A model generated the notes under the pieces. The model did no database searches and had not been told where the DNA came from. It saw only the letters and a program-made list of their open reading frames with translations. The position numbers were made by a program, and so were the translations under genes. A DNA stretch of 36,521 bases from Deltaproteobacteria bacterium (GTDB lineage: Bacteria; Desulfobacterota; Desulfobacteria; Desulfobacterales; C00003060), in assembly GCA_016930875.1 (NCBI GenBank), contig JAFGFW010000157.1:1-36521 (forward strand), written 5' to 3'. Shown in pieces: positions 1 through 14,282 of this stretch. Each line of letters opens with the position of its first letter. Within the stretch, counting starts at the first letter, position 1.

Positions 1-1081
1 GAAGCGTAAAACCCAACAGCTGGCCTAGACGTTATCAAATTGTCAAAGAGCAAAAACAGCTTGTTTACTTGTTTACAAGACTACCGCGAAGCGGTTTCGT
101 TCAACTAATAATTGACGGACAAAAAAGACCCTATAGCCAGACGACAAACGCACCAGTTTTGGTGTATAAAACTCATTTTCTCTTTGATAACATACTGATT
201 TAATTAGGGGCCGATTTTATCGTATGATGTATAAAATGCCAAAATTCTGCGTGGATTGCACCAAAAACGATGAAATTTGTGACCCAAAATCAACATTGGT
301 GCATAAATACATAAAACGTTTCATGAATAACACCAATGTTGGTGCATAAATCACATTGTTTTGTTTGTAACCTGCTGATTTACTTCAATGCCAAGTTCAT
401 CAAATGGTGTATAAATGCATAAAGCCACACATGAATCACACCAGTTTTACAAATGTGCACTTTGTCCACTGTTTTTTGTTCAGTTACCACATGTTATCAA
501 CAATAACAATCTTCAATGCCCACACCCACCACAAGCGATGCTCACCAGACGCAAAGACCGCAGAGAGAGTCTTATTCTTGTCCTATCCCGCCAAAGGCCG
601 GGCGATTGGACAAGACCACTCGTGACGTTAAGGGGGACATCCTGCTTTTCGTTACAATACGATTCCAAAACCCACCCTTTACAATCCTCATAAATATTGA
701 TAAGTTCACTCCCGGCTCAGTTCAATCCCACCTTCGGCAGGATCATCCCGCTAGCGCAAACGACGAAAGAATGTTATCCAAGTTGCTCTCAAAAGATGTG
801 TGATCGAACCATATATATGTTCTGTTCTTGCCAATACTGAAGTTAACAGTTCTTATGACAAAAGGTTTGACAAGTGCGGGCAAAGAATTATCATTAACAT
901 TGGTGTCTAGCTCGCCGCCAGTTCGCTTCAAGTCTGTTCGCCTGCCCCCCCAGCAAGACAATTGCCGATTAGCAGAGCATCAGAGAAGATTGAGTGGGCT
1001 GTCTCTTTTTTCGGAAAGTCAGATTCTTTGGGCAGGGCTTGCAGGTGGAGACACGGAAGTCAAAAAGAGAGAGGTCTTACG
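1..1081. other. Left-end region without a convincing gene
   Basis: The short open frames here are overlapping, low-complexity and lack ribosome binding sites, so none is called. The region is A+T-richer than the rest at 1-520. It holds the direct repeat at 151-455, a stretch at 547-566 resembling the widespread intergenic motif CGCAAAGAC-CGCAGAGA, and a possible stem-loop at 577-614 with 7-bp outer arms CTTGTCC/GGACAAG. A DnaA-box-like TTATCAACA lies near 493, but it stands alone. Confidence 0.5.
151..455. repeat. Degenerate direct repeat, 180-bp period, with CACCA/TGGTG inverted repeats
   Basis: The stretch 151-275 is repeated in degenerate form at 331-455, an offset of exactly 180 bp. CACCA occurs at 151, 259, 331 and 439 (spacings 108, 72, 108). 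Two of these form short inverted repeats: CACCAGTTTTGGTG at 151-164 and CACCAATGTTGGTG at 331-344, each followed by a TATAAA- or CATAAA-like tail. The central block around CTGATTTA is also shared at the same offset. A longer-range pair, AACATTGGTG near 292 and CACCAATGTT at 331, gives an alternative hairpin. AACATTGGTG appears again near 895. No coding function is apparent; operator array or decayed mobile-element end are both possible. Confidence 0.6.
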
Positions 1082-1840
1082 ATGAAAAGAATGGTCGCAA
1101 TCACGTTGCTGGTCGTCATGCTGACCATGTCGGCATTGGCAGCAGGAGCCTATCTTGCCACAAGGTTTTTTGTTGATCCGGCATTAAAGGATCTCAACAG
1201 GGCTGTAGCTGCCGTACAGCCCGAGGCCCAAAAACAGTTAATGCCTTATCTGCAACAATTGCAAGAACTTCGCGATACAGGAGGCTTCTATGTCCCCTGT
1301 GTTCTATTCCTGGCAGGTTTAACGGCGACCTTGATCCTTTCTCCGTTGCTACGCAGCTCGGCCAAGCGCCTTGTGGTCACGCGCAAGGAAACACCCAAGG
1401 CGGCGGCAAACATTTTAGCAGAACAAGAAAGACCGATAAAAGCTGTTGGTGATGACCCTGTAGATGTGGGCGCGTGTCGGATACTGTCCATTCTTCAAAA
1501 CAAAGGGAGACTGATCGATTTCCTACAGGAAGATATCACCGCATATCCGGATGCTCAAATTGGTTCGGCTGTGCGCCATATTCACGAGGACTGCAGGAAC
1601 GCTCTCAGCGCATATATCAGCCTGGCTCCGGTCATGTCTGAAAAAGAAGGGGAGACAGTGGTGGTCTCCGAAGGGTTTGATCCTTCCGAGATCCGGCTCA
1701 CAGGGCAACTAACACAGAAGGCGCCTTTTGAGGGAGTTCTCCAGCACTCTGGCTGGAAGATCACCCAGATAGATCTGCCTGAGCAGCCCAAAGGCCAAAA
1801 GCATAGAGTAATAGCCCCGGCTGAGGTGGAAATCGGTTAG
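1082..1840 (+). CDS. DUF2760 domain membrane protein
   Basis: A protein of 252 residues of unknown function. The start at 1082 is preferred over an upstream ATG at 962 because it follows an AGAGAGAGG stretch and begins directly with a hydrophobic segment (residues about 4-24); a second hydrophobic segment lies near residues 70-85. The C-terminal 125 residues match my recollection of DUF2760: a GRLIDFLQEDI motif, PDAQIG, a GFDPSEIRLTG motif and a terminal APAEVE. It is followed 16 bp later by two Hsp70-family genes on the same strand, and I recall this neighbourhood recurring in other Desulfobacterota. The plausible role is a membrane-anchored partner of these chaperones; this is inferred from context only. 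Confidence 0.75.
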   Translation: MKRMVAITLLVVMLTMSALAAGAYLATRFFVDPALKDLNRAVAAVQPEAQKQLMPYLQQLQELRDTGGFYVPCVLFLAGLTATLILSPLLRSSAKRLVVTRKETPKAAANILAEQERPIKAVGDDPVDVGACRILSILQNKGRLIDFLQEDITAYPDAQIGSAVRHIHEDCRNALSAYISLAPVMSEKEGETVVVSEGFDPSEIRLTGQLTQKAPFEGVLQHSGWKITQIDLPEQPKGQKHRVIAPAEVEIG

Positions 1841-1856
1841 ATAGTGTAGACAACCC

Positions 1857-3668
1857 ATGGAACCATCAAGATATATCGTTGGCATAGATCTGGGGACCAC
1901 CAACTGTGCGGTCGCTTATGTGGATACCCTTGCACAGGAGGAGGACGATAGGCCCAAGATCCGTCTTTTTCGCATTGCCCAAGTAGTAGCCCCTGGCACG
2001 GTGGAAGAGCGGCAACTTCTGCCGTCCTTTTCTTATCAGCAGGCCACAGGAGAATTCCCTCAAGGGAGCCTGGATCTACCGTGGCAAGAGGAGTTGGGGT
2101 TTGCGGTGGGAGCCTTTGCCAGAGAACGAGGCGCTGAGGTCCCTGATCGGGTCATCTCATCGGCCAAATCGTGGCTCAGCCATTCCGGTGTGAATCGCAC
2201 TGCGGCGTTACTACCATGGGGGGGCGCAGAAGAAATTCCGCATATCTCTCCGATTGAGGGCTCATCCAGATTGCTAAAACATATTCGTGATGCGTGGAAT
2301 CACGTGATCGCAGGCCAAGACCCGAGTCTTTTTCTGGAATCCCAGGAGATATTCTTGACAGTCCCTGCCTCCTTTGATGCGACAGCGCGGGAGCTAACAG
2401 TCCGTGCCGCAGAGATGGCAGGGATATCGCGGGTTACACTTTTAGAAGAGCCCCAAGCCGCCTTTTATGCCTGGATCGAAAGCGCCCAAAACGCATGGCA
2501 AAAGGAAGTGCGCGTGGGCGATGTAATCCTTGTCTGCGATATCGGCGGCGGCACCACTGATTTTAGCCTTATCCTGGTCTCGGAAAGGGAAGAGGAACTC
2601 GTTCTTGAACGGATTGCTGTGGGAGACCATATCCTTCTGGGTGGAGACAACATGGATCTCACGTTGGCCTATGCCATTAGAAATCGTTTGGCAGGTGAAG
2701 GAACCAGGCTGGACAACTGGCAAATGAGAGGGCTCCTGCACTCCTGCCGGCGGGCCAAAGAGGAGATCTTTCAGAATCCTGATTGCCGTTCCTGTCCGGT
2801 CACGATCCTGGGGAAGGGACGACGACTTATTGGAGGTACAATCAGCACGGAGCTTACCAGCCAGGAGATAGAAGAGGTCATCCTGGACGGTTTTTTTCCA
2901 AGGTGTGGTGAGACTGACCGGCCACGGGAAAGGCATCAGGCCGGGCTGAAAGAGTTAGGGCTTCCGTATGCTTCAGATCCTGCTGTGACAAGGCACATGG
3001 CATGGTTCCTTCAAAGGCACAGCAATGACGGCAATCTCGCAGGCGAGACCCTAAGGCCCACGGCCGTCCTGTTTAACGGAGGGGTCATGAAGGCCGGGCC
3101 CTTGCAGCAGAGGCTGGTGGAAATCCTTGAAAGCTGGGACAAGGGTAAAAAAGAGTTAAAGGTGCTTTTTTCCCAATCGCTTGATCTGGCAGTGGCCTGT
3201 GGGAGCGCATATTACGGCTTGGCCCGACGCGGCCGTGGGATACGAATCCGCAGCGGCACTGAGAGGTCCTACTACATAGGAATCGAAACCGCCATGCCCG
3301 CAGTTCCCGGGATGCTCGCCCCGGTTAAGGCGCTCTGCGTGGTACCCTTTGGTATGGAGGAGGGGACTGAGGCAGATCTGCCGGATCAGCACTTTGGCCT
3401 GGTGGTGGGAGAAGCGGTATCTTTTCGTTTTTTTGGCTCGACTACTCGACACGACGACAGGATCGGAGACGTTATAGAAGACTGGGAAGAGACAGACATT
3501 GAGGAACTCGTCCCGTTGGAAACACGGCTTGCAGCTGAAGAGGGTCTCGAAGGGAGCCTGGTACGAGTGCGGTTGCGCATAAAGGTGACCGAGATAGGAA
3601 CACTGGAACTTTGGTTTGTCTCCGAGATCAAGCGTTGGAGACTTGAATTCAATGTTCGGCAACCGTGA
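1857..3668 (+). CDS. Hsp70-family (DnaK-like) chaperone, short form
   Basis: A 603-residue Hsp70-family ATPase. The phosphate-1 motif GIDLGTTNCAVAY lies at residues 9-21, the phosphate-2 motif DIGGGTTDFSL is near residue 229, and GGDNMDL follows about 35 residues later. LLEEPQAAFYAW matches the actin-fold connect region. A beta-rich C-terminal part is present, but the protein ends at RWRLEFNVRQP without the helical lid and acidic tail of true DnaK. It is therefore an Hsp70 homologue, not the housekeeping DnaK, and no dnaJ or grpE is nearby. No clear ribosome binding site precedes the start. It is clearly paralogous to the next gene, sharing motifs such as SLDLPW, SSAKSWL and RDAWNH. Client and partner are unknown. 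Confidence 0.88.
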   Translation: MEPSRYIVGIDLGTTNCAVAYVDTLAQEEDDRPKIRLFRIAQVVAPGTVEERQLLPSFSYQQATGEFPQGSLDLPWQEELGFAVGAFARERGAEVPDRVISSAKSWLSHSGVNRTAALLPWGGAEEIPHISPIEGSSRLLKHIRDAWNHVIAGQDPSLFLESQEIFLTVPASFDATARELTVRAAEMAGISRVTLLEEPQAAFYAWIESAQNAWQKEVRVGDVILVCDIGGGTTDFSLILVSEREEELVLERIAVGDHILLGGDNMDLTLAYAIRNRLAGEGTRLDNWQMRGLLHSCRRAKEEIFQNPDCRSCPVTILGKGRRLIGGTISTELTSQEIEEVILDGFFPRCGETDRPRERHQAGLKELGLPYASDPAVTRHMAWFLQRHSNDGNLAGETLRPTAVLFNGGVMKAGPLQQRLVEILESWDKGKKELKVLFSQSLDLAVACGSAYYGLARRGRGIRIRSGTERSYYIGIETAMPAVPGMLAPVKALCVVPFGMEEGTEADLPDQHFGLVVGEAVSFRFFGSTTRHDDRIGDVIEDWEETDIEELVPLETRLAAEEGLEGSLVRVRLRIKVTEIGTLELWFVSEIKRWRLEFNVRQP

Positions 3669-3715
3669 AGATTTGGTTTGCCGATTTTGCCCGTTGAGCC
3701 ATACCCCGAGTACAG

Positions 3716-6577
3716 ATGAAACAGGGTGCACAAAAAAGATCCCGGTACGTCATAGGGATAGACCTTGGCACAACAAATTCCGCCATTTCATATATCGATA
3801 CCCGCAGATATCCGACCGGTGGGGTCAATGCCGTTCAAACCTTTCCTGTCCCCCAGTTGACCGGCGAGGGGGAAATTGCACAGCGCAAGGGGCTTCCCTC
3901 TTTCTTATATCTTTCAACCGGTCACGATCTACCCGCAGGAAGCCTTGATCTGCCCTGGGCAGAAAACAGAGATCTTGCAGTTGGAGAATTTGCCCGCATC
4001 CAAGGGGCAAAGGTCCCAGGGCGCCTTGTTTCCTCTGCAAAATCGTGGCTATGTCACTCAGGTGTGGATCGCAAGGCGCCTATTCTTCCGTGGGGAGATG
4101 TGGGAGAGATTTCAAAGCTCTCCCCTGTGGAGGTCTCCTCCCTTTATCTCAGGCATATGCGTGACGCATGGAACCATACAGTAGCTGTCGGCGATCCTGC
4201 TAAGCGGTTTGAGGAACAGGACCTAATCCTCACCGTGCCGGCCTCTTTTGATCAAGTTGCCAGAGAACTCACCTTAGAGGCAGCAAAAAAAGCAGGTCTT
4301 GCCCATGTTACGCTCCTTGAAGAACCTCAGGCTGCATTTTATTCGTGGATAGCCTGTCACGAGAAAGATTGGCAACAAACCATTGGTCCGGGAACGGTCG
4401 TCCTCATTTGCGACATTGGAGGGGGGACCACCGACTTTACCCTGATCCGTGTAAAAGAGGGGGAGACTGGGCCGGTCCCCGAACGCAGCGCAGTGGGAGA
4501 ACACCTCCTCCTTGGTGGCGACAATATGGATCTGGCCCTGGCCCGTTTGGTTGAATCCCGGATGATGGGTGGCAGTGAAAAAAGGCTTGATTCTCTTCGC
4601 TGGCAAATGCTGACCTCCCTTTGCAGAAGCGCGAAAGAGAAAATTCTCACAGAAGGAGAGCCTCAATCCGTTCCGATCAGCCTTCCAGGGCGTGGCAAAG
4701 GAATCGTTGCCGGGGCTTTGTCCGGCTCACTCGATTCGGAGGATGTACAAGATGCTATTATCAAGGGCTTTTTCCCGTTTACACAAGCCGATGAAATGCC
4801 GATCCCAAGGACTGGCAGCGGTATTCAGGAGTGGGGGCTCCCGTTTGCTGCAGATCCTGTTGTTCCACGTCATCTCGCGGCGTTTTTGAAAAGACACCAG
4901 GCGGCCGATTCTTCCCAAGCCGATGATTCCCTGTCACTACGACCAGGCGCTATTCTTTTTAATGGCGGAGTGTTTACGCCCAAGGGCATTAGACAACGTG
5001 TGGTAGATATCGTGTCGGGATGGTTTTCAAAGGCCGGAGGGGTCAAGTGGCGTCCTGTGGTGCTTGAAAATGAGCTCCCTGCCGTGGCAGTAGCACGGGG
5101 TGCCGCATACTACGGCATGGTGCGCCGGGGCCGCGGAATCCGCATTGTGGGTGGAAGCCCGCGCTCCTATTACGTAAAGGTCGTAACCACGGGTGAGACT
5201 GAGAAATCGCCCGGACAAATCAAGGCCGTATGCGTCATACCCAGGGGCATGGAAGAAGGGGAAAAGGCAGAGATAGAATCTCCAGTATTCAAGGTGCTGC
5301 CAAACCAGCCGGTCTCTTTTTCGCTTTACAGTTCTAATGCCAGAAAGGGCGATCAACTCGGCCAAGTTCTTGCTCTGCAGGAAGATTCATTGTTTAAGCT
5401 CCCTCCACTTCATACAATCTTGCGGTTTGGGAAAAAAGGGGCTGTCCGAAAAATACCGGTCTACCTTTGTGCTCGCCTCACAGAGGTCGGGACCTTAGAC
5501 CTTGCTTGCCATTCCAGGGAAACCGAGCATCGATGGAGGCTCGAATTCAATATCCGACCAGCCGTAAGTGAAAAAGTAGAGGATAGAGAGCGGCTCAAGA
5601 AGAAGGGACGGAAAGAATCAATTTCAGAAAAGTCAATAGCAAGGGCCTTGAAGACCCTGGGGGCTGCATTTAGCGCTGAAGGGCCTCTTTCAGATGATCA
5701 GGCCACGCCCGCCACTGTCATGAAAGCGTTGCGCGACCATCTTCGTACGAGCAAGGAGAAGTGGCCGGTTCCGGTCTTGAGGCGTCTTGCTGATGCCCTC
5801 CTTACAGAGCCAGACCGGCGAAAAATAAGCCCCAGACATGAAGAAAGGTGGCTGAATCTTGTCGGGTTTTGTCTCCGGCCCGGCTATGGTGACGTGGCGG
5901 ATAGCTATCGAATGCAGCAGATATGGAAAGTCTATCATGCCGGTGTTATCTTTTCCCGTGACCGACAATGCCGGGTGGAGTGGTGGATCCTGTGGAGACG
6001 TGTGGCCGGCGGCTTGAGCCAGAAGCAACAGATGGCCCTTTTCCGCGACCTCTGTCCGGCTCTTCTGCCCGGGAAAAAGAAAGGAACCAAGCAACACCGC
6101 CTTGCCGCGCCGGAGCGGACCGAGATGTGGCGCACCATGGCCAACCTAGAGAGACTTCCAGTTGAGAATAAGGAAAAGATAGGCAAAACGCTCATAAAGC
6201 AAATCGGGACCTCCCGCGGTGAAGGGCTTAATATGTGGGTTCTTTCGCGTATTGCCTCACGCATTCCTCTCTACGGCCCTCTAAACGAAGTGGTTTCTGC
6301 CAGAACGGTCACACGCTGGATAAGACGGATACTTGAAACAGAGTGGAAGAAACCGGATCAGACAGGGTTTTGTGTAGTTCAAATGGCGTGTTTTTCCGGA
6401 GACCGGGAAAGGGAACTCGATGCGAATCTCAAAGATCGCATTGAAGAAAGACTGAGCGGATTGGAAGACAGCGAGCGTTTGTCTCAAAGATTGCACGAAA
6501 TGGTTTCTCTGAGCACTACTGAACAAGGCCGCGTCTTTGGCGAAGGCCTGCCAGGGGGGCTCCATTTGGCAGAATAG
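3716..6577 (+). CDS. Hsp70-family protein with long C-terminal extension (DUF3731-like)
   Basis: A 953-residue protein. Residues 1-600 are a full Hsp70-family unit: GIDLGTTNSAISY near residue 14, DIGGGTTDFTL near residue 233, GGDNMDL, and a closing HRWRLEFNIRP block like that ending the preceding protein. Residues 600-953 are an additional, mostly helical, Trp- and Arg-rich region that I associate with DUF3731 (motifs such as WLNLVGFCLRPGYG, VEWWILWRRVAGG and LWVLSRIASRIPLYGPLN-like segments). The gap from the upstream paralogue is 47 bp, and uvrA starts 28 bp downstream. The pair looks like a tandem duplication in which one copy gained or kept the extension. The extension may bind a client or the DUF2760 protein; this is speculation. 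Confidence 0.85.
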   Translation: MKQGAQKRSRYVIGIDLGTTNSAISYIDTRRYPTGGVNAVQTFPVPQLTGEGEIAQRKGLPSFLYLSTGHDLPAGSLDLPWAENRDLAVGEFARIQGAKVPGRLVSSAKSWLCHSGVDRKAPILPWGDVGEISKLSPVEVSSLYLRHMRDAWNHTVAVGDPAKRFEEQDLILTVPASFDQVARELTLEAAKKAGLAHVTLLEEPQAAFYSWIACHEKDWQQTIGPGTVVLICDIGGGTTDFTLIRVKEGETGPVPERSAVGEHLLLGGDNMDLALARLVESRMMGGSEKRLDSLRWQMLTSLCRSAKEKILTEGEPQSVPISLPGRGKGIVAGALSGSLDSEDVQDAIIKGFFPFTQADEMPIPRTGSGIQEWGLPFAADPVVPRHLAAFLKRHQAADSSQADDSLSLRPGAILFNGGVFTPKGIRQRVVDIVSGWFSKAGGVKWRPVVLENELPAVAVARGAAYYGMVRRGRGIRIVGGSPRSYYVKVVTTGETEKSPGQIKAVCVIPRGMEEGEKAEIESPVFKVLPNQPVSFSLYSSNARKGDQLGQVLALQEDSLFKLPPLHTILRFGKKGAVRKIPVYLCARLTEVGTLDLACHSRETEHRWRLEFNIRPAVSEKVEDRERLKKKGRKESISEKSIARALKTLGAAFSAEGPLSDDQATPATVMKALRDHLRTSKEKWPVPVLRRLADALLTEPDRRKISPRHEERWLNLVGFCLRPGYGDVADSYRMQQIWKVYHAGVIFSRDRQCRVEWWILWRRVAGGLSQKQQMALFRDLCPALLPGKKKGTKQHRLAAPERTEMWRTMANLERLPVENKEKIGKTLIKQIGTSRGEGLNMWVLSRIASRIPLYGPLNEVVSARTVTRWIRRILETEWKKPDQTGFCVVQMACFSGDRERELDANLKDRIEERLSGLEDSERLSQRLHEMVSLSTTEQGRVFGEGLPGGLHLAE

Positions 6578-6605: not shown

Positions 6606-9600
6606 GTGAAGAACCAAGCCATCCTGATCAAAGGGGCCAGGCAGAATAACCTCAAGAACCTGGATCTGGAAATCCCCCTGAACCGTATCACCGTCGTCAC
6701 AGGCGTGAGCGGTTCGGGAAAGTCTTCTCTGGCCTTTGATACGCTCTATGCTGAGGGCCAGCGCCGGTATGTGGAGACCTTTTCCCCTTATGCCCGGCAG
6801 TTCATGGATCGCATGGACCGCCCCCAGGTGGATCGCATTGAGGGTATCCCGCCTGCCATTGCCATCGACAGAAAAGACCCGGTGCGAACATCCCGCTCCA
6901 CTGTGGGCACCATGACCGAAATCACGGACTATGTTAAACTCCTTTACTCCCGCCTGGGCCAACTCCACTGCAAGAAATGCGGCAAGCCCGTAACCCCCGA
7001 AACCCCGGACCATGTATGGAAGGTCCTAAAGAACCGTGCAGCGGGGTCTGAGATCGTGATCACCTTCCCTGCTCCTGCAAATGGCGCAAGCGCCGATCAA
7101 GTGCGCAAAAGATTAGCGCGGATAGGCTTTGACCGTTTCTTTTCAGACGGCAAGATTAGACCTCTAACGGACTGGGAGGCAAGCGATGATGCAACAGAGC
7201 TTAATATCGTGGCAGACCGGGTTTTGCTGCAAGGCAAGGATCGGAAGCGTATTGTGGATTCCCTGGAGCAGGCCTTTCGTTTTGGAAGGGGTACGCTCGA
7301 TGTGTGGATCAAGCCGGACCAGCGCCTTGCATTCAGCAACACCCTTGAATGCGCTGACTGCAAAATTCCTTACGTCGCCCCCCAACCGAACCTCTTTTCT
7401 TTTAACAGCCCGCTTGGGGCCTGTGAGTCCTGTCGGGGATTTGGCCGAATCATTGATATAGATCAGGACCTCATCATCCCGGACCACGCCCTTTCCCTGG
7501 AAGAAGGGGCCATTAAGCCATGGGGAGACTGGGAAGACCACCGCACGGAATATGACGACATGATGGCCTTTTGCCGGCGCAAGAAAATACCCACAGATAT
7601 CCCCTTTGATCATCTGACACAAGATCAGAAAAGGGCAATTATTGAAGGAACACCCAGCTATTATGGGGTGCGGGGTTTTTTCAAGTGGCTTGAATCCAAG
7701 ACCTATAAGATGCACGTCAGGGTTTTTCTCTCCCGATACCGGACCTACAAAATCTGCCCTGACTGCAATGGCGCCCGTTTCAAGGAAGAGGCCTTGCTGT
7801 ATCGACTTGGTGCGCTGAACATCGGCCAGGTCTATGCCTTGAACGTGGATGAGACGAGCAGATTCTTTGACGCACTCAATGTCCCAACCAGGGATGAAGC
7901 CAGCCAGATCCTTCTTGATGAAATTCGCGGCAGGCTCAAATACCTTCGGAACGTGGGACTCGCGTATCTCACTCTGGATCGGCAATCCCGCACCCTTTCC
8001 GGTGGCGAGGTACAGCGCGTTGCTCTGGCTTCAGCCCTCGGCTCTTCCCTGGTAAACACCCTCTACATTCTGGATGAGCCGAGCATCGGCCTTCACCCCC
8101 GGGACAACCACCGTCTCATCCGCATCATGAAGGGCCTCAGGGATCTGCAAAACACCTTGGTCGTAGTTGAACATGATCCGGAAATCATCAGCCAGAGCGA
8201 CTTTATGCTGGACCTCGGGCCCAGGGCCGGCGAGCACGGCGGCCAGGTGATGTATTTTGGCCCCACTATGAGCGTAAACGGCTCCCTCACCGGGCAATAC
8301 CTTAAGGGTGAGCGGCATATCTCCATACCCAAGAAGCGGCGAAAGCCCAAAGAGGGCCGATGGCTGGTAATCGAGAAGGCGGCCGAACACAATTTGCGGG
8401 ACATCGATGTTCATATTCCCCTCGGCCTCCTGGTCTGTTTGACAGGGGTCTCGGGCTCAGGCAAATCGACCCTGGCAGAAGAGATCCTGTACAAGGCCAT
8501 CAAGTGGGTCAAATGGGACCCCCAGGGCAGACCCGGTTGCCACAAGACGATCACAGGCCTGGAACAGATCGTCGACGTCGTGCTGGTAGACCAAAGGCCC
8601 ATCGGACGCACCCCCAGGGCCAATGCCTTAACGTATACCAAGGCCATGGATCCCATCCGCCGCGTGATGGCCAACACATCGGAGGCCCGTGCCAGGGGGT
8701 TTGGGCTGAGCCATTTTTCTTTTAATGTGGCAGGAGGACGGTGCGAAACGTGCCGGGGAGAGGGGTTTGAAAAGGTGGAGATGCAGTTTCTTTCCGATGT
8801 CTTTATTACGTGTCCGGACTGCGGTGGAAAGCGCTTCAAAAAGGAAATCCTGGAAGTGACCTACAAGGGCCAGAACATATACAACATCCTATCCATGACC
8901 GTTGATCACGCCCTCGCTTTTTTTGATGACCAAGCCAAAATAAAGGCCGCGCTTGAGCCCATGGTAGATGTGGGCCTCGGTTACATTCGGCTTGGCCAGC
9001 CCATTAACACCCTTTCAGGAGGCGAGGCCCAACGTCTTAAGCTCTCTCGATATCTAAAGGCCGGAGACAACGGCTTGCGGCTTTTTATCTTTGACGAACC
9101 CACCACCGGACTCCACTTTGACGACATAGAAAAACTCCTGGCAGCCCTCCAGCGGCTTGTTTCTGAAGGCAACACGGTGCTGCTGATCGAACACAACATG
9201 GATGTTGTCAAGGCAGCAGACTGGGTGATCGACCTGGGTCCTGAAGGTGGAGATGAGGGCGGCCAGGTCGTTGTGGCAGGCCCAGCGGAAGAAGTGGCAA
9301 AGCACAAGAAATCTCATACAGGCCGGTTCCTAAAGGAGTATCTGGCCTGCCGAGGGCGGTTGGCGCCGTGCAAGTCCTTGCCTTCTAACATAGAACCAAT
9401 TCGATCAACCATTTCCTCCGCTACCCTTCCCTCTGCCTCGTCAAAGACCCGCCGTGTTTCTGGCGCAAAGGGGGAGTGTTTGGGAGTGGGTGAGGCCATC
9501 ACAATAAGAGGCGCCCGAGAACACAACCTGAAAAATTTAAGCCTTTCCATCCCCCGCAACCAGCTCGTGGTACTCACAGGGGTATCCGGCTCGGGCAAAT

Positions 9601-11984
9601 CTACTCTGGCTTTTGACATTCTCTTTGCCGAGGGTCAACGCCGTTATCTGGAAAGCCTAGCGCCTTATGTCAGGCAATATGTAAGGATCCTTGAACGGCC
9701 TGATGTGGATGTCGTGACCGGCCTTCCACCCACCGTGGCCATTGAACAGCGCGTCAGCCAGGCCGGTCGCCGGTCGACTGTTGCAACGCTGACCGAGATC
9801 TATCATTTCCTCAGGCTCTTATACAGCAAGCTCGGTTCCCGGCACTGCTCACGTTGCGGCCGCAAGTTGACAACCCAAACCGCGGACCAAATCGCGGATC
9901 AGATACGGGATCGGTTCGAAAAAAAGCAGGCCATGGTCCTGGCCCCCAAGGTGGCAGGGCGAAAAGGGTTTCACAAGGCTGTGTTGGCCCAGGCCATGCT
10001 CAAGGGGTACAGGGAAGCGCGTATCGACGGCAGCTTGACAAGACTGAAAAGGAACATGGCCCTGAGCCGCTTTCATGAGCACACTATTGAGCTTGTGGTG
10101 GGACGCCTCCCAACAGAAGACATTTGCGGGCTGGTGGCCCGTGGCCTGAAAGAAGGGGGCGGAAGCCTTTTGGTTCTAGACCCCAAAGGGAAGGAAGAGG
10201 TGTTCAGTCTGCTGGGCATCTGCCCGGACTGCGGCATAGGCTTGCAGGCCCTGGACCCGCGACTCTTTTCCTTTAACAGCACACACGGGGCGTGTCCCCT
10301 GTGTGACGGACTGGGTGAAATAGAGGTTCCGGACTCAGATGAACACAAGGTGTGCCCTCAATGCCAGGGAAGTCGCCTAAAGTCTGAAGCCCTGGCCGCA
10401 AAAATCGGGGGCCATTCCATCTGGGACCTGGTGCAGCAGCCGGCTGACCGGATGCATAGCACTCTCAAAGGGTTTTCCTTCGGCCCCCAGGAATCGCCCA
10501 TAGCCGTACCAATTTTGGCTGAGATCCTGACACGCCTTTCCTTGCTCGACCGGCTCGGGTTGTCCTATCTTGCCCTGAGTCGAAGCGGTCAGACCCTGTC
10601 CGGGGGCGAGGCCCAGCGTGTCCGGCTGGCAGCCCAACTTGGATCAAGTCTTACCGGTGTCTGCTACATTCTGGATGAACCTACTATCGGCCTCCACGCC
10701 AGGGACCACAGGATGCTCCTTGATGCTCTCAAAGAACTCAAAGAACGGGGCAATTCGATCCTGGTCGTGGAGCATGATGAGGATACTATCCGCGAGGCTG
10801 ACTGCCTCATCGATCTGGGCCCCGGAGCCGGACAGGACGGTGGCGAGGTTGTAGCCCGTGGCCAATTGGCAGACCTGAAAAAAGTCTCTGCATCCGTTAC
10901 TGGCGCCTTTTTTGACGGGCACCCGCACCGAATTACTTCCCGTCTTAGGCCTTACAAAGACCGCCCATGCATCACAGTTCGCGGGGCAACACAACACAAT
11001 CTGAAAGGCATCGACGTTGCGTTTCCTCTTGGTGCGCTGATCTGCGTCACAGGGGTCTCGGGTTCCGGCAAGTCCACGCTTCTTAAAGAGACCCTATACT
11101 ATGAGGTGAGCAACGGGATTCTGAAACAACACCATGGCACGAGGCGGTGCAAAAAAATCGAGGGATGGGAAACCCTGGAAAGGGTTCTGGAAGTGGACCA
11201 CAGTCCCATTGGCCGCACCCCTCGCTCTGTGCCTGCCTCCTATGTGGGATTCCTGTCTGAAATACGCAAGCTATTTGCCATGACCCCGGAGGCCAGGGCC
11301 AGAGGATATGATGCCGGCCGGTTTTCATTCAACGTAAGACGGGGCCGCTGCGAGGCGTGCAAAGGGCACGGCAGCCTGAAAGTCGCCATGAGCTTTCTCC
11401 CTGATGTCTATGTTCACTGTGAGGCCTGTAGCGGACAACGCTTCAACCATGAGACCCTGGCGGTCACCTACAAAGGAAAAAACATCTCTGAGGTCCTGGA
11501 GCTTACTTTTGAGGAGGCAGCAAGCTTTTTTGCTGCCGTCCCGTCTATTCGCCGTCCGATCCGGGTTGTCTCCGATGTCGGCCTTGGATATCTGCGCCTG
11601 GGACAGCCCAGCCCCACCCTTTCAGGAGGCGAGGCCCAGCGCATAAAGCTGGCCGAAGAACTGGCCAAGCCTTCCAAAGGCCGCACTCTTTACCTCTTGG
11701 ATGAGCCGACTACAGGGCTTCACGTGGCTGATGTCCAGAGGCTCTTGATAGTGCTGCAAGCATTGGTGGACGAAGGCAACACCATAGCTGTGATTGAACA
11801 CAATATGGAGGTGATAAAGGATGCCGATTACATTATTGACCTTGGCCCGGAAGGGGGCGATGAGGGGGGGCACATGGTGGCAGCAGGGTCCCCCGCGGAG
11901 CTGATAGCCCATCCAAACGAGTCTCACACGGCCCACTATTTGAGGAAACACCTTTTTCCCGAGCAGGTTCACAAGAATTTCTGA
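6606..11984 (+). CDS. uvrA: UvrA, tandem-duplicated (double-length) excinuclease ATPase
   Basis: The damage-recognition ATPase of nucleotide excision repair, here 1792 residues, about twice the usual 940. A GTG at 6606 is chosen as start because GGAGAAGGGAG at 6587-6597 lies at good spacing and the conserved N-terminus begins there. Four Walker A motifs (GVSGSGKS) occur near residues 33, 613, 990 and 1482, each with its LSGGE signature (LSGGEVQR, then three LSGGEAQR) and a DEP-S/T-x-GLH Walker B. Zinc-finger CxxC pairs are present in both halves, including CETCRGEGF...CPDCGGKRF and CEACKGHGS...[10 protein letters not shown] Ser/Pro-rich linker at about residues 925-960 joins the halves. The same architecture is known from Chlamydia. 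uvrB and uvrC are not in the window. Fusion rather than assembly error is supported by the divergence of the two halves. Confidence 0.95.
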
Positions 11985-13199: not shown

Positions 13200-14282
13200 A
13201 TGAGAAAAATTGCTCTGGTCAATCAAAAAGGCGGCTGTGGCAAAACGACAACAGCCATAAACCTGGCTTGTTGTTTGGCGGATGACGGCAAAAAGGTCCT
13301 CTTGATTGATCTGGACCCGCAAGGGCATTCAGCTTTGGGCCTGGGAGTGGAGTCCGACCAGATCGAAAACAGCATCTACGAGGTCCTCTTAGGCGAAATA
13401 CCGATAACCAAAGCCGTTCTGACCTTGAATAAGAACCTTGACGCCATTTTTTGCAATGTCGTCCTGAGCGCCTTTGAGCAGGTCATGGCCGGCGCCCCGG
13501 AGCGGGAATACAAACTCGCACGGAGCCTTGAGGGGATTGAGAACGACTACGACTATCTCATCATTGACAGTCCTCCCAGCGTGGGTCTCTTGACTTTTAA
13601 TGGTCTCATGGCCTGTGAGGAGGTGATTATTCCTGTTGACTCGAGTTCGTTTTCTCTTCACGGGCTGGGGAAACTTCTGGATACTATCCGGATAATCGAA
13701 GAAAAGGCGGGGCACGAACTCTCCGTTAAGATCCTGGCCACAAACATTGACCGCAGGACCAATTTTTGCAGGGGTGTGGTGGAGGCGTTGAGGGCTCACT
13801 TCCCTGAAAAATGCTTTGAGACCGTTATTCACACATGCACCCGATTAAGAGAAGCTGCAAGCCACGGGGAGCCCATTAGTGAATACGACAGGCATTGTGT
13901 GGCCTTTCGCGATTATCAAAATCTCACCCACGAAATTTTGGACGTTGAAGATGCAATGCAGGCTAGGATTGCGACCCTTGAACTTTTTTCGGAAGGCAAG
14001 GAGCTTTTTGGGAAACTTGGGGAAAGGACGGTCACGTTTACGTTTGAGGCCCCCGAGAACGCCGTGGTTCAGATCGCCGGCGATTTCAACAACTGGAGTG
14101 CCGAGGACCTTCGCTTCATGGATTCTCCCGGCAGTCCGGCTTGGCAGAAACCCATTTTGCTCAAGCCTGGCTCCTACCAATACAAGTACCTGATTGATGG
14201 GCACTGGATTACTGATCCAGCAAACCGGAAAACGGTTGACGATTTTTTCGGAGGCGCCAATTCCGTCATAGACGTCTCGTGA
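13200..14282 (+). CDS. ParA-family ATPase fused to AMPK-type glycogen-binding domain (CBM48)
   Basis: A 360-residue two-domain protein. Residues 1-255 are a ParA/Soj-type ATPase: the deviant Walker A KGGCGKTTT begins at K10, with K15 as the P-loop lysine; LLIDLDPQGHSALGLG follows, then LIIDSPPSVGLLT and a D-rich end. Residues 277-360 match the E-set carbohydrate-binding domain of AMPK beta subunits and CBM48: AGDFNNW, GSYQYKYLIDGHWITDP and a closing GGANSVIDV. ParA proteins normally move plasmids, chromosomes or protein cargos along the nucleoid; CBM48 domains bind alpha-glucan. The fusion suggests a ParA whose cargo is a glycogen or polyglucose granule, or whose activity senses glucan. This is inference. 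GGAGG precedes the ATG. There is no ParB gene adjacent. Confidence 0.9.
   Translation: MRKIALVNQKGGCGKTTTAINLACCLADDGKKVLLIDLDPQGHSALGLGVESDQIENSIYEVLLGEIPITKAVLTLNKNLDAIFCNVVLSAFEQVMAGAPEREYKLARSLEGIENDYDYLIIDSPPSVGLLTFNGLMACEEVIIPVDSSSFSLHGLGKLLDTIRIIEEKAGHELSVKILATNIDRRTNFCRGVVEALRAHFPEKCFETVIHTCTRLREAASHGEPISEYDRHCVAFRDYQNLTHEILDVEDAMQARIATLELFSEGKELFGKLGERTVTFTFEAPENAVVQIAGDFNNWSAEDLRFMDSPGSPAWQKPILLKPGSYQYKYLIDGHWITDPANRKTVDDFFGGANSVIDVS

Follow-up and report, generated by a model that had tools for sequence, protein, structure and literature searches.

Near-constant pairing of a DUF2760 protein with a DUF3731-bearing Hsp70 in Desulfobacterota and Nitrospirota: a candidate dedicated Hsp70 system

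A 2021 review distinguishes three types of prokaryotic Hsp70, namely DnaK, HscA and HscC, and describes HscA and HscC as having coevolved with specialised J-proteins (PMC8215388). Residue R167 and the linker residue D393 are reported as the switch that J-domains use, with HPD acting on R167 (PMC7289447). Here we compare with these systems a three-gene unit from a deltaproteobacterium of the order Desulfobacterales (NCBI GenBank assembly GCA_016930875.1, contig JAFGFW010000157.1, positions 1 to 36,521; this whole stretch of 36,521 nucleotides is hereafter the window), which encodes a DUF2760 protein (D), a lidless Hsp70 (A) and an Hsp70 with a DUF3731 domain (B); these labels are used throughout. 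Three findings stand out as new: the near-perfect coupling of D and B across genomes, the dispensability of A, and a J-docking signature that is lost while the ATP site is predicted to be intact. The unit may represent a dedicated Hsp70 system with D and B as its core, A as a usual addition and D as the regulator and tether of an Hsp70 that works independently of J-proteins, and we give this reading a probability of about 0.5.

All three genes lie on the + strand, with 16 bp between D and A and 47 bp between A and B, and their positions in the window and the evidence for them are as follows:

1082..1840, + strand: D, DUF2760 protein of 252 amino acids (aa), ATG start at 1082; PF10816 E-value 2.1e-47.
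1857..3668, + strand: A, lidless Hsp70 paralogue of 603 aa, made of a nucleotide-binding domain (NBD) and a part resembling the beta substrate-binding domain (SBD-beta); PF00012 E-value 4.2e-14.
3716..6577, + strand: B, Hsp70 of 953 aa in which DUF3731 replaces the lid; PF00012 E-value 1.2e-15, PF12531 E-value 2.5e-84.
5828..6568, + strand: DUF3731 domain of B, a helical array; PF12531 match across all 248 positions, and helices in the AlphaFold2 (AF2) model.

D belongs to the DUF2760 family with 160.4 bits for PF10816 and B to the DUF3731 family with 283.4 bits for PF12531 (residues 705-951), the cut-off being 25 bits in both cases, and A and B both score above the PF00012 cut-off of the Hsp70 superfamily. 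The location and the DUF2760 and Hsp70 assignments agree with a first-pass annotation, made from the sequence alone, that had placed three such genes here. The source genome measures 3.68 Mb in 212 contigs, of which contig C157 carries the unit. B is 96% identical to the closest named match found, from a metagenome-assembled genome, and 69-77% identical to relatives from Desulfobacterales and Deltaproteobacteria.

Among 297 genomes of Desulfobacterota PF12531 was found in 40, PF10816 in 42 and both in 39, spread over 22 families, and the Fisher value for the association of D and B, with kinship ignored, was 4.6e-44. The four exceptions, B without D in G041 and D without B in G042, G078 and G275, are all assemblies of 570-740 contigs. 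In a Nitrospirota sample centred on G297, the genome of Candidatus Magnetomicrobium, D and B occurred in the identical 9 of 198 genomes. On plasmids D was found in 11 of 72,556 records, the same 11 that held the best Hsp70-B matches; ten of these hold a full-length B (at least 80% of B covered), and the eleventh, from Thiodictyon, has D and A only. Of the ten records with B, five were inspected: three annotated ones show the order D-A-B, and two unannotated ones contain frames for D, A and B. Neither family was detected in 14 control genomes. That the genes might mostly occur independently of one another, an outcome that the first-pass annotation had named as a refutation, was not borne out, since D and B go together near-perfectly in two phyla and on plasmids.

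This association is not a matter of adjacency only. Of the 39 Desulfobacterota genomes with both genes, 22 have D and B clustered and 17 have them apart. The clustered genomes comprise 19 with direct D-A-B order, one with D-B and no A (G134) and two in which A and B are separated by other DNA (G001, G077). A contig break could explain the separation in some of the 17 unlinked genomes, and in the single-contig genomes G161, G204 and G269 D and B are 0.25-0.56 Mb apart. In Nitrospirota they are clustered in six of the nine genomes and apart in three, including G382 with 0.6 Mb between them on one contig. Because D and B are unclustered in 17/39 and 3/9 genomes, respectively, their link exceeds map position. 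Gain and loss of the two genes coincide even if they are unlinked, and D and B form the constant core of the unit. The gene order on which the first-pass annotation had laid weight is common, at 19 of the 39 Desulfobacterota genomes, but it is not the main fact.

The remaining gene behaves differently. A adjoins D in 36 of the 42 D-bearing Desulfobacterota genomes and in all nine Nitrospirota; in G181 and G078 the Hsp70 beside D is cut by the contig end and was called A by its position, and in G156 A was first recognised by its PF00012 match and later as a complete frame. Six of the 39 genomes with D and B, all with a completeness of 99-100%, have no A (G134, G155, G204, G228, G248 and G269). 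Their PF00012 matches were read as DnaK, B and an MreB-like frame of 343-378 aa; in addition G134 has an Hsp70 match within a frame of 1,399 aa, and G269 a match below the cut-off. A is therefore dispensable, and it stays with D, not with B, so that the earlier idea of a three-gene unit holds in so far as a dedicated Hsp70 unit is concerned but not as regards equal standing of its genes. In a tree with a DnaK/HscA outgroup A formed one clade (45/45, support 0.94) nested in B; the root of this tree is unreliable, because the outgroup branch is very long.

In five genomes whose B lies elsewhere, namely G029, G205, G249, G270 and G290 (loci L123, L131, L196, L197 and L198), a HEAT-repeat gene directly follows A, two of the five being confirmed by Pfam and the rest by similarity to those two; A may have an additional partner in its product. 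Separately, Hsp70 matches in open frames of 1,399-1,608 aa (G134:C10, G161:C1:1364488 and G275:C503) belong to another long Hsp70 architecture.

For the residue analysis 45 A sequences longer than 560 aa and 49 B sequences longer than 880 aa were aligned with 15 DnaK and one Escherichia coli HscA; the sample is non-random and contains closely related sequences as well as a small number of duplicate genomes. The ATP-site residues D8, T11, K70, E171, D194 and T199 are invariant in 45/45 A and 49/49 B, and we regard the site as intact in both proteins, with ATPase activity predicted. The J-domain docking residue R167 is found in none of the 45 A, where the position is occupied by T, V, I or H, and in five of the 49 B, whereas all 15 DnaK and the control, HscA, have it. 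In all 94 A and B sequences Glu stands in place of N170, and the VLLLD linker is absent from all 94. DnaK retains R167, N170 and the linker, and HscA retains R167, N170 and an MLLLD linker. The region of the IIB loop, 26 residues long in HscA and 36 in DnaK, measures 37-53 residues in A and B. As judged from these alignments, both Hsp70s have lost the J-domain docking residues while keeping the ATP site. Because the usual J-protein docking site has been lost, the unit probably acts together with some as yet undescribed helper.

The housekeeping chaperones of the source genome are located elsewhere: GrpE is encoded beside DnaK, the other strong Hsp70 match, on another contig, and ten J-domain matches are present, none of them on the contig of the unit. 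A fourth PF00012 match, in a 348-aa frame, is one we take to be MreB. When 74 loci, the whole window included, were scanned with J-domain and GrpE profiles built for this analysis, no GrpE was found in any of them and a J-domain open reading frame (ORF) was found in one, a relative; the window has neither, in keeping with the first-pass remark that no DnaJ or GrpE gene is a neighbour. A and B could nevertheless be ordinary accessory Hsp70s served by the housekeeping DnaJ and GrpE, with D as a bystander, as the genome supplies DnaK, GrpE and J-domain proteins and five B sequences keep R167. We consider this very unlikely given the near-perfect co-occurrence of D and B, unlinked cases included, and the loss of R167 in 89/94, of N170 in 94/94 and of the VLLLD linker in 94/94 sequences. 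The related expectation that A and B do not associate with housekeeping DnaJ and GrpE only is supported indirectly, by the lost docking residues next to an intact ATP site.

The architecture of B also departs from that of DnaK. The AF2 model of B (mean predicted local distance difference test score, pLDDT, 77; predicted template modelling score, pTM, 0.63) matches residues 1-512 of DnaK with its residues 8-618 and continues as a helical array from 618 to 941; position 512 is where the lid of DnaK begins. Superpositions on near-full-length DnaK and BiP structures mostly gave a root-mean-square deviation (rmsd) of 3.5-4 Å over 463-482 residues with Z of about 30, a few rows having a higher rmsd. 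A stops directly after its SBD-beta-like region. A lid of the DnaK type is thus missing from both, as the first-pass annotation had proposed: A ends after SBD-beta, and in B, by sequence and by AF2 model, the DnaK match stops at 512 and DUF3731 follows. The extension of B, put at 350 residues in that annotation, is present and measures about 335 residues (619-953). When the complete B model was compared with known structures, Hsp70s, Sse1 among them, filled the lists of matches, and a search of PDB sequences with the B profile at 1e-10 gave no match. DUF3731 was also considered as a HEAT domain, an idea that found no support at the profile level, as the domain has no profile similarity to the five HEAT-repeat neighbours mentioned above. 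A more specific version of the preferred reading, in which D is an obligate, usually membrane-anchored co-chaperone that replaces both J-protein and exchange factor, B is an ATPase-competent Hsp70 with a helical array where the lid would be and the lidless A is sometimes an Hsp110-style partner, is tentative and on balance rather unlikely.

The AF2 model of D (mean pLDDT 85, pTM 0.47) comprises a hydrophobic helical hairpin (residues 2-101), a linker of low confidence and a C-terminal alpha/beta domain (126-252). Two hydrophobic segments were recognised in the D of the window, at about residues 4-22 and 71-89, and at least one transmembrane (TM)-like segment in 43 of 48 D homologues, which bears out the proposal that D is membrane-anchored. 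Of the five homologues without such a segment, L070 is shortened by the choice of start and L081, L084, L085 and L086 are beta- or gammaproteobacterial. Over the 48 homologues 19 columns are invariant, all of them in the C-terminal domain. Foldseek with the D model returned nothing at an E-value of 0.001, and the rows given a second look mostly covered residues 1-105; the leading sequence matches of D to solved structures concerned the hydrophobic hairpin or the linker, and none of them was a co-chaperone. In these searches the C-terminal domain met with no confident match among solved structures.

One candidate role for D, stated before testing, is that of a membrane-anchored nucleotide-exchange factor, i.e., a divergent or convergent counterpart of GrpE. 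The order of elements is similar (helices, then a small beta domain), the local hhalign alignment is colinear across 97 columns, the FDP and PA motifs being in register, Thermus GrpE (3a6m) appears as a weak row in the second-look list (Z 3.3, 107 residues), and slow exchange is plausible since the long IIB loop, missing from HscA, is retained in A and B. The structural row, however, has an rmsd of 14.7 Å, and homology to GrpE was rejected at the profile level, with no PF01025 match and an hhalign P-value of 0.32 (probability 0.2%). The hhalign score was no better than that of about 30 unrelated families, and the 524 permuted controls lent it no support: 123/124 circular shifts, 182/200 block shuffles and 95/200 column shuffles scored at least as well. 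The long alignment of D with GrpE falls to 35 columns once gappy columns are trimmed. We therefore regard the exchange-factor role as clearly unlikely. Homology of D to J-domains was likewise rejected, with no PF00226 match and, against four J-domains of the same genome, an hhalign alignment of 12 columns (P 0.12).

Alternatively, D might be a membrane receptor or client-handling part and not a regulator, recruiting A and B for a specific membrane process. The two TM-like segments in most homologues, the constant co-occurrence with B and the lack of similarity to any co-chaperone family above threshold would suit such a role, which we judge unlikely all the same, since no recurrent neighbour cluster names a process in most loci and the soluble domain is the most conserved part of D.

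The genomic surroundings bear on a further proposal, in which the unit would be a module of phage defence or of mobile elements. Its distribution is patchy, and D-A without B is found on the Thiodictyon plasmid (L085) among genes annotated as anti-phage, toxin-antitoxin and TIR; D-A-B is present on two conjugative Bradyrhizobium plasmids (L082, L083), on one of them near groES-groEL. The PADLOC matches are weak and limited to the ATPase fold, the ten neighbour proteins scanned are housekeeping, HEAT-repeat or of no known function, and D occurs in none of 50,697 phage records, so that this proposal seems highly improbable.

The most economical mechanism would have D as a partner that couples B and usually tethers it, in line with the dedicated D-B core set out at the beginning. 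A and B would take no clients from ordinary J-proteins. D, usually anchored in the membrane by its helical hairpin, would probably place its C-terminal domain in the cytosol and would bind B, and A where present, through putative contacts, doing the work of the partner. In this way D may tether the ATPase at the membrane and set its nucleotide cycle, either by activating the enzyme or by promoting exchange. A and B may operate as a pair, and the clients could, as a guess, be membrane or envelope proteins under stress.

Several observations weigh against this interpretation. The four beta- and gammaproteobacterial D proteins without a clear TM segment indicate that the membrane tether is not universal. 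R167 persists in the five B proteins noted above, and the linker gap is a region that cannot be aligned with DnaK, so that a linker may still exist. The sole J-domain ORF in the 74 loci (L019:1459-1857, + strand) lies about 1 kb upstream of D in a close relative. Co-occurrence of D and B can also arise from a shared pathway without contact.

No paper naming DUF2760, DUF3731, PF10816 or PF12531 was found in the collection searched, which consisted of open-licence articles from PubMed Central (PMC). The Vibrio cholerae genes VC1373-VC1375, annotated 'DnaK-related', may represent the same kind of unit. HapR is reported to activate the VC1375 promoter both in vivo and in vitro (PMC10328515), a screen for in-biofilm-repressed genes lists VC1374 (PMC9201469), and in a polymyxin B study the VC1374 transcript differs between the wild type and a vc1639 mutant (PMC5636140). 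We treat these reports as leads to function and not as evidence for the mechanism. If D regulates A and B, bacteria offer an exception to the rule that Hsp70s need J-domain proteins, and two Pfam domains of unknown function gain a function that is testable in a cultured relative, e.g., Desulfoluna.

Outside D-A-B no conserved neighbour recurred across most loci. Upstream of D the window contains one further, uncertain feature:

867..894, + strand: promoter-like site (TTGACA, 16 bp, TATCAT), 11/12 matches in a consensus scan.

The scan gave three such sites in comparison with 3.9 in shuffled sequences, so that the site is no proof of a promoter. Downstream, a UvrA-like gene (6606-11984, + strand) begins 28 bp past B and encodes 1,792 aa, apparently two UvrA units in one chain, and the gene at 13200-14282 (+ strand) combines a ParA/MinD-type ATPase (AAA_31) with an AMPK-type glycogen-binding domain (AMPK1_CBM), which is an uncommon arrangement.

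Set beside the described systems, the unit shares some traits with each. D resembles GrpE in having helices followed by a small beta domain and differs from it in showing no significant profile similarity. Like the eukaryotic Hsp70-Hsp110 pair, the unit consists in part of two divergent Hsp70 proteins, of which one carries an extended helical C-terminal region; on the other side, B occurs without A in six genomes, Sse1 ranks below DnaK and BiP in the structural comparison, and the relation observed is that of the Hsp70 fold. The DnaK/DnaJ/GrpE system is alike in the NBD and SBD-beta fold, the tested ATP-site residues and the long IIB loop region, whereas DnaK has the lid, the VLLLD linker, R167 and N170, no J-protein or GrpE gene stands beside A and B, and B has DUF3731. 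In HscA/HscB, too, a specialised Hsp70 shares its operon with a dedicated partner, and HscA gives the best NCBIfam similarity of A and B, at 79.1 and 75.3 bits, far below the TIGR01991 cut-off of 708.55; HscA, however, keeps R167, N170 and the linker, its IIB (GrpE-signature) loop is shortened, and its partner is a J-protein. HscC with DjlB/DjlC offers the parallel of a divergent Hsp70 tied to membrane-bound partners and is set apart by its description in the review as J-protein-stimulated and provided with a lid (PMC8215388). Of the marks of the HscC type (GrpE signature absent, NBD deletion 76-101, lid), A and B show an unshortened IIB loop and no lid. On the features tested, and for HscC by description, A and B thus match none of the DnaK, HscA and HscC types.

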